Shown: piece after piece, positions 32,148 to 32,336 of the stretch
How the letters are laid out: each line of letters starts with the position of its first letter
Numbering within the stretch: position 1 is the first letter of the stretch
NCBI GenBank assembly: GCA_902500825.1
Contig: CABVRX010000001.1
Location: forward strand, 124,001 to 188,000
Source of the DNA: an uncultured Nitrospira sp.
GTDB taxonomy: Bacteria > Nitrospirota > Nitrospiria > Nitrospirales > Nitrospiraceae
DNA: 64,000 nt
Reading direction: 5' to 3'
The notes under the pieces: model-generated
Databases searched by the model: none
What the model was told of the DNA's origin: nothing
What the model saw: only the letters and a program-made list of their open reading frames with translations
Position numbers and translations under genes: made by a program

Positions 32148-32176
32148 TTGACAGGTTTTGGATCATTCAGTAGGAT
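32148..32176 (+). promoter_or_regulatory. Sigma-70 promoter of the pyr operon
   Basis: TTGACA at 32148-32153, exactly 17 bases, TAGGAT at 32171-32176. Transcription would begin near 32183, just before the PyrR-type hairpin, giving a leader of about 150 nt before pyrR. Confidence 0.7.
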
Positions 32177-32191
32177 AGCGCAACCTTTAAT

Positions 32192-32268
32192 GCTCATCCA
32201 GTGAGGTGAGCAAGGAGCCGATCATGAACTTCGATCCGGCCACGGCCGGTGATAGGAGACCTTCTCAC
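32192..32268 (+). promoter_or_regulatory. PyrR-binding hairpin and antiterminator of the pyr attenuator
   Basis: GCTCA (32192-32196) and TGAGC (32207-32211) enclose the loop TCCAGTGAGG, which matches the PyrR-binding loop of pyr leaders (consensus UCCAGAGAGGY). In the alternative fold GTGAG-C-AAGG (32205-32214) pairs with CCTTCTCAC (32260-32268) leaving one bulged C; this antiterminator destroys the terminator stem. Predicted logic: with UMP, PyrR holds the first hairpin and the terminator forms; without UMP, the operon is read. A small CCGGC/GCCGG hairpin lies between. Confidence 0.8.
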
Positions 32269-32293
32269 AATCGCACTGTGAGGAGGTTTTTTT
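32260..32293 (+). terminator. Attenuator terminator upstream of pyrR
   Basis: Stem CCTTCTCAC (32260-32268) with GTGAGGAGG (32278-32286), nine pairs including one G-U, loop of nine, followed by seven T (32287-32293). It lies 44 bases before pyrR, so it controls the operon rather than ending an upstream gene. Confidence 0.85.
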
Positions 32294-32336
32294 ATGCCCA
32301 CATTCGACAATCACGCGATCGCATCGTAACCTGACT

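Follow-up and report, generated by a model that had tools for sequence, protein, structure and literature searches.

A PyrR leader of the pyr operon in an uncultured Nitrospira sp. with a putative reading frame that crosses its terminator

The window, which is the whole stretch of 64,000 nucleotides analysed here, contains an apparent pyr operon with the gene order pyrR, pyrB, pyrC, a gene for a DUF4149 protein, carA, genes for an SppA-like peptidase and an M48 peptidase, and carB. A base-by-base reading covered positions 32148–32336, and the features of the leader and of the first three genes are listed in Table 1. The genes lying between pyrC and carB include those encoding the DUF4149 protein (35149–35679), the SppA-like protease (36724–37797) and the M48 peptidase (37874–38836). 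Upstream of the operon, a 554-residue protein (29413–31077) was without an NCBIfam match and matched CorA below threshold (23.1 bits, cut-off 27). The nearest named relatives of the PyrR protein came from Nitrospira and Nitrospirae records, and the genome was therefore rightly described as Nitrospira-like in the original prediction. Nitrospirota include the main nitrite oxidisers, in which, to our knowledge, little gene regulation has been described. In most relatives the residue preceding the conserved RIAHE motif of PyrR was Thr or Ser, and in the window's genus it was Met, Ile or Val in 18 of 30 proteins; its equivalent in Bacillus subtilis is Thr18, an RNA-contact residue.

Table 1. Features of the pyrR leader and the adjoining genes (window coordinates).
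Feature	Position	Strand	Details
Sigma-70-type promoter	32148–32176	+	TTGACA 32148–32153, 17 nt, TAGGAT 32171–32176
PyrR-binding hairpin (anti-antiterminator)	32184–32215	+	RF00515 alignment, fold, covariation
Hairpin lower stem	32184–32187 with 32212–32215	+	CCUU with AAGG
Hairpin upper stem	32192–32198 with 32205–32211	+	
Hairpin conserved loop region	32197–32206	+	TCCAGTGAGG
Antiterminator 5' arm (candidate)	32206–32215	+	GUGAG-(C)-AAGG; pairs with CCUUCUCAC 32260–32268, C32211 bulged
Putative Shine-Dalgarno sequence of uORF1	32212–32217	+	AAGGAG; hairpin 3' foot AAGG extended by AG
uORF1, putative leader frame	32224–32334	+	36 codons and TGA 32332–32334; crosses the terminator; predicted to be translated
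Intrinsic terminator	32260–32293	+	stem 32260–32269 with 32277–32286, loop 32270–32276, T7 32287–32293
uORF2	32281–32329	+	AGGAGG 32281–32286 in terminator 3' arm, T7, ATG 32294, 11 codons, TAA 32327–32329
pyrR	32337–32903	+	NCBIfam NF003549, 237.8 bits; PDB PyrR relatives; start possibly 32349
pyrB, aspartate carbamoyltransferase catalytic subunit	32917–33837	+	
pyrC-type dihydroorotase	33873–35159	+	

In the Rfam scan that had been proposed as a check, the PyrR binding site family (RF00515) matched positions 32180–32295 of the + strand in a 301-base query (32100–32400), with a score of 50.3 bits (E = 3e-6) and an alignment spanning all 115 model positions. Because this score lies under the 54-bit gathering score of the family, the scan of the whole window at gathering cut-offs listed two tRNAs and nothing else. 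No second match was found across the 50 contigs (3.79 Mb) of the genome. RF00515 matched 220 of 295 genomes drawn evenly across the phylum at E ≤ 0.01, with 45 of the 295 over the 54-bit cut-off. In the window's genus, 39 of the 40 genomes on the list, which counts the window's own genome and omits 55 genomes of the sample without a match, had one. Three of 14 control genomes had a match, namely those of Bacillus subtilis, Thermus composti and Lactococcus lactis. Two PyrR leaders (L147 and L148), each followed by a pyrR-like gene, were found in one relative with a genome of 1.8 Mb. With PyrR encoded in the genome and pyr genes located 3' of the element, the leader is, as judged from its sequence and gene context, a genuine PyrR switch of the pyr operon, and the original claim of a PyrR leader at this locus was borne out. 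Seen as a PyrR leader only, the element is an ordinary member of a known family.

The promoter, the hairpin with its loop and the terminator with seven T were located where the original prediction had placed them. The promoter by itself was near chance (one found, 0.6 expected from shuffles), but the arrangement of TTGACA, 16–18 nt and.A...T was present in 53/53 leaders of the window's family compared with 0.24/53 after shuffling. On the basis of the promoter spacing, transcription is expected to start near 32183, almost at the hairpin. The loop motif TCC.G.GAGG was likewise present in 53/53 family leaders, and the conserved loop UCCNGNGAGG sits on a covarying stem. The terminator, with ten pairs (32260–32286), a loop of seven and T7 (32287–32293), was detected by folding and was missed by a simple terminator scan, which gave 0 hits. 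The fold of 32183–32292 was more stable than those of shuffled sequences (z = -3.4), only one of 200 shuffles folding as well. Among 64 leaders of the window's order, the window included, the hairpin and the terminator were paired in 97.5% of cells, with 69 double-change cells compared with 19.9 in shuffled alignments (reached in 0/500). A second alignment of 43 leaders, comprising the window and 42 of the 48 one-per-genus leaders from outside its order, yielded 89 double changes compared with 32.1, and the compensatory changes that had been suggested as a check were thus found in relatives for both helices. A middle hairpin, CCGGCC/GGCCGG, occurred in many members of the genus; it was not kept across the family and was therefore not counted as a part of the leader.

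The proposed antiterminator consists of nine pairs, and its 3' arm (32260–32268) is also the 5' arm of the terminator. The pairing with this arm and the single bulge were as originally predicted, but the 5' arm had been placed at 32205–32214, one base too far upstream. The antiterminator was paired in 97.2% of cells in the 64 leaders of the order, compared with 46–65% when the arms were slid against each other. Covariation was sought in two alignments and by partner swapping and was not found in the order, where there was one double change, 257/500 shuffles paired as well, and inside groups own and swapped partners paired equally well. Since the hairpin and the terminator also constrain the sequence of both antiterminator arms, this lack of covariation neither proves nor refutes the pairing. 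In the 43-leader alignment, the two inner pairs were missing in 41/43 and 37/43 leaders and covariation was weak (score 0.164 compared with 0.140 for shuffles, 7/500). The check for compensatory changes thus had a divided outcome for the antiterminator, with pairing kept in the order but no covariation there and a fading of the pairing outside it. Within Nitrospirota, a strong predicted antiterminator is confined to the window's order. In a transcript ending at 32269 the antiterminator (-25.5 kcal/mol) and the PyrR hairpin (-24.7 kcal/mol) were poised, and in the full leader the hairpin with the terminator reached -43.3 kcal/mol compared with -35.7 kcal/mol for the antiterminator.

The hairpin foot also borders a putative leader reading frame, uORF1, which starts with ATG at 32224 and whose stop lies 2 nt before the pyrR ATG at 32337. 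In relatives, the AAGG of the foot is followed by AG and then, a few bases on, by ATG. In a first set of 61 leaders of the order, the start codon was ATG in 59, GTG in one and CTG in one, and a stricter search reassigned the CTG leader to a GTG at another place. A start signal, defined as a start codon with a Shine-Dalgarno-like 4-mer ending 4–11 nt upstream, was counted in 125 mutually related leaders from 65 genera, which were the better-scoring matches and a part of those listed, and was compared with 200 shuffles keeping dinucleotides and AAGG. It was present in 122/125 Nitrospirota leaders compared with 60.4 in shuffles (sd 4.7, maximum 73), in 62/65 with one leader per genus (29.6, sd 3.9), and in 53/53 of the window's family (27.9), where ATG alone accounted for 52/53 (12.1). 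In 24 of the leaders (from L002–L030) the element was placed by pattern near its known position. The start codons varied (ATG 91, GTG 17 and TTG 14 of 122), and the Shine-Dalgarno-like 4-mer overlapped or was the hairpin foot in 99/122 leaders and ended 6–9 nt behind it in the other 23.

The frame following this start was analysed in the same 122 leaders, the three without a start signal being G190_L210, L009 and L027. No stop occurred before the terminator stem in 104/122 leaders in frame 0, compared with 32 in frame +1 and 67 in frame +2, and none through the stem in 81/122, compared with 25 and 54. Of the two controls, frame +1 is biased by the early stop that ATGA itself supplies, and frame +2 is the fair one. 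The frame ended before or inside the stem in 41/122 leaders; an end at most 27 nt upstream of the stem, or later, was found in 120/122 (frame +2, 113/122). The position of the stop was examined in the 121 leaders with pyrR in reach, which excludes L002. When the leaders open past the T tract were considered, the stop lay within 10 nt of a possible pyrR start in 60/81 compared with 10/24 in frame +1 and 17/54 in frame +2 (Fisher p = 6e-7 against both pooled, relatedness ignored), and with one leader per genus in 28.2/34.0 compared with 5.2/13.8 and 9.3/27.2, respectively. Long leader frames also ended near the pyrR start (56, 72 and 75 codons in L156, L161 and L191). The PyrR motif was farther from the leader than usual in L126, L140, L155, L156 and L161; in L156 and L161 the leader frame was longer and its end still lay on a possible pyrR start codon. 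A stop-start overlap was found in 32/81 open leaders, but such an overlap (ATGA) alone was weakened as proof of coupling, because a possible start is overlapped by 159 of the 563 stops counted from the T tract to the PyrR motif. As the overlap is this common by chance, the distance within 10 nt was compared between frames instead.

A conserved leader peptide was considered and rejected, there being no constraint at the amino-acid level and no Pfam match. Synonymous changes made up 73/254 single-difference codons in frame 0, compared with 93/296 and 42/192 in the other frames, and gave no sign of selection on a peptide. An unconserved peptide is as expected if only translation matters, and equally if the frame is untranslated. 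In the portions consulted of one open-licence library, no description of a leader frame behind a PyrR hairpin was found for Nitrospirota, nor did this library yield papers on pyrR, Nitrospira and pyrimidine biosynthesis. A Bacillus-type mechanism with all parts assigned had originally been claimed; the PyrR leader of the pyr operon stood, but the leader frame, which on comparison of sequences is a better supported part than the antiterminator, had been overlooked.

A second frame, uORF2, begins directly after T7. ATG, GTG or TTG was located at this place in 48/53 family leaders and 50/72 others, and the 3' arm of the terminator ends in an AGG-type sequence, so that together with the T tract and the start codon the stem looks like a ribosome site. 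In the 53 family leaders, the post-T7 frame was pyrR itself in 13 and a separate frame in 35, mostly short (2 to 88 codons), and five had no start.

The start signal was also counted in leaders located by other routes. A simple pattern located the leader in 46 of 80 named loci, the other 34 being perhaps missed or without sequence. The signal was present in 11/11 named Nitrospirota leaders (5.8 in shuffles), the organisms being partly shared with the main set, in 8/8 of the other non-Bacillota (2.9), and in 21 of 27 Bacillota (14.9, maximum 22), where ATG alone was found in 14 (7.2, maximum 13). Among leaders placed with Rfam, which come partly from the same genomes and omit L227 (no foot found), L239 and L252 (not placed), the signal was found in 13/20 from Bacillota (9.4), where the loci may be any of several pyr leaders, in 9/13 from the Syntrophaceae phylum (6.0, shuffle maximum 11) and in 7/7 from other non-Bacillota (2.4). 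In the Syntrophaceae phylum ATG alone was found in 9/13 (3.1), the signal was absent in 4/13, and the excess counted over all three start codons is modest. Some excess of the start signal may exist in Bacillota too. The energy of the antiterminator with its own arm compared with a shuffled arm was -10.4 and -6.9 kcal/mol in Bacillota, -12.3 and -8.0 in the window's family, -8.4 and -7.3 in other Nitrospirota, -5.0 and -5.0 in the Syntrophaceae phylum and -5.5 and -6.3 in other non-Bacillota. The leader frame and the antiterminator thus look complementary across groups, with both in the window's family, which is suggestive only because the groups are small.

Taken together, the PyrR element, its place before a pyr operon, the start signal kept in relatives and the frame open behind it suggest that the leader is probably an attenuator under PyrR control in which termination can be prevented in two ways. 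Since the AAGG of the foot and CCUU pair to close the lower stem in the Rfam structure, binding of PyrR-UMP should both block the antiterminator and hide the ribosome site of the leader frame. When UMP is plentiful, PyrR-UMP would clamp the first hairpin, which would keep its own 3' arm from forming the antiterminator and would bury the AAGG of the Shine-Dalgarno sequence in the lower stem, so that no ribosome would load; the terminator would then form and transcription would stop before pyrR. When UMP is scarce, PyrR would leave, and the antiterminator would form, or a ribosome would start uORF1 at 32224, or both. Moving behind the polymerase, this ribosome would cross the terminator stem and reach its stop codon 2 nt short of the pyrR start, a position that would also couple translation of pyrR. 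In the window AAGG is hidden in both alternative folds, and access of the ribosome to the leader frame is therefore not obvious. Of the two routes, it is the putative ribosome route that the comparison of leaders across Nitrospirota supports. Passages of two studies in Escherichia coli report that a ribosome near or on an intrinsic terminator suppresses it (PMC4824070, PMC5021804). In the part of PMC4824070 consulted, the terminator was almost fully repressed a few bp after the stop codon and maximal beyond 27 nt, and one construct whose terminator lay within a coding region showed only partial suppression, with termination at 40% of the uncoupled level. By analogy, we infer that such suppression may operate in Nitrospira.

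It is also possible, but unlikely, that the leader is a canonical Bacillus-type attenuator only, in which PyrR-UMP would stabilise the first hairpin and free the terminator, the antiterminator (32206–32215/32260–32268) would form otherwise, and the leader frame would be an untranslated by-product of the purine-rich foot. The full-length RF00515 match, the pairing of the antiterminator in the 64 leaders compared with slid arms, the stability of the family duplex over shuffled arms and the poised energies of hairpin and antiterminator all agree with such a device. However, the antiterminator is without covariation, its own and swapped partners are equal inside groups and its pairing is largely lost outside the order, and the start codon, the open frame and the position of the stop are left unexplained.

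Mainly translational control, in which PyrR-UMP would hide the leader ribosome site, pyrR would be translated only by coupling to uORF1 or uORF2, and the hairpin before T7 would be as much a block of a ribosome site as a terminator, appears quite improbable. A ten-pair stem followed by T7 makes a standard terminator, and stem and T tract are conserved together, which argues against this explanation even though an NTG right after T7 with AGG-type stem sequence is widespread in the family and beyond, and the post-T7 frame is fused to pyrR in 13/53. The stop-start overlaps of the open leaders also point towards translational control, but overlaps are frequent by chance.

The attenuator with two ways of preventing termination may be part of a broader division of PyrR leaders into two designs, a proposition for and against which we see even chances: an RNA antiterminator in Bacillota, and a translated frame with PyrR gating ribosome entry at the hairpin foot in Nitrospirota and other non-Bacillota. 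The window's family would be a hybrid, in which the terminator stem is also a ribosome site for a second frame. The PyrR leader itself is of a known kind, and unlike the Bacillus version this one carries a conserved leader frame through the terminator, a variant worth a bench test. Because the frame crosses the terminator, the ribosome may help to decide whether the genes are read. If it is translated, the contact between PyrR and RNA in Nitrospirota would work through transcription-translation coupling; two classical attenuation mechanisms would then be linked in one leader, which would offer a test of evolution between them.

PyrR attenuation is commonly explained as a switch that works by RNA structure alone. 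It is described as a Gram-positive device in the part of PMC13328217 consulted, and the Bacillus-type mechanism is also described in a passage of PMC4347634. The pyr attenuators of Bacillus subtilis have in common with the leader studied here the PyrR loop, the order of hairpin, antiterminator (a candidate here) and terminator, and the pyr genes downstream. In contrast to them, a single element is present in this genome, and its hairpin foot is followed by a conserved leader frame, which was not clearly enriched in 20 Bacillota leaders. In the pyr leader of Thermus ZO5, as reportedly described in J. Bacteriol. in 1997, a translating ribosome and no antiterminator prevents the terminator under PyrR attenuation; in the window's family, by contrast, a strong candidate antiterminator is present as well. 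Fields and Switzer are said to have described in 2007 a PyrR-dependent translational repression in Mycobacterium smegmatis, which the leader resembles in that PyrR may hide a ribosome binding site, whereas in the present case the site is that of the leader frame and is followed by a terminator. The pyrBI operon of E. coli uses UTP-dependent pausing in place of PyrR and is not known to have a PyrR hairpin. Its pyrL leader frame likewise crosses a terminator before a pyr operon, and tight coupling over pyrL prevents termination before pyrBI according to a passage of PMC5021804. A frame with a ribosome site and open across the terminator, as in attenuation by leader translation of the pyrBI or Thermus kind, is present in the window.
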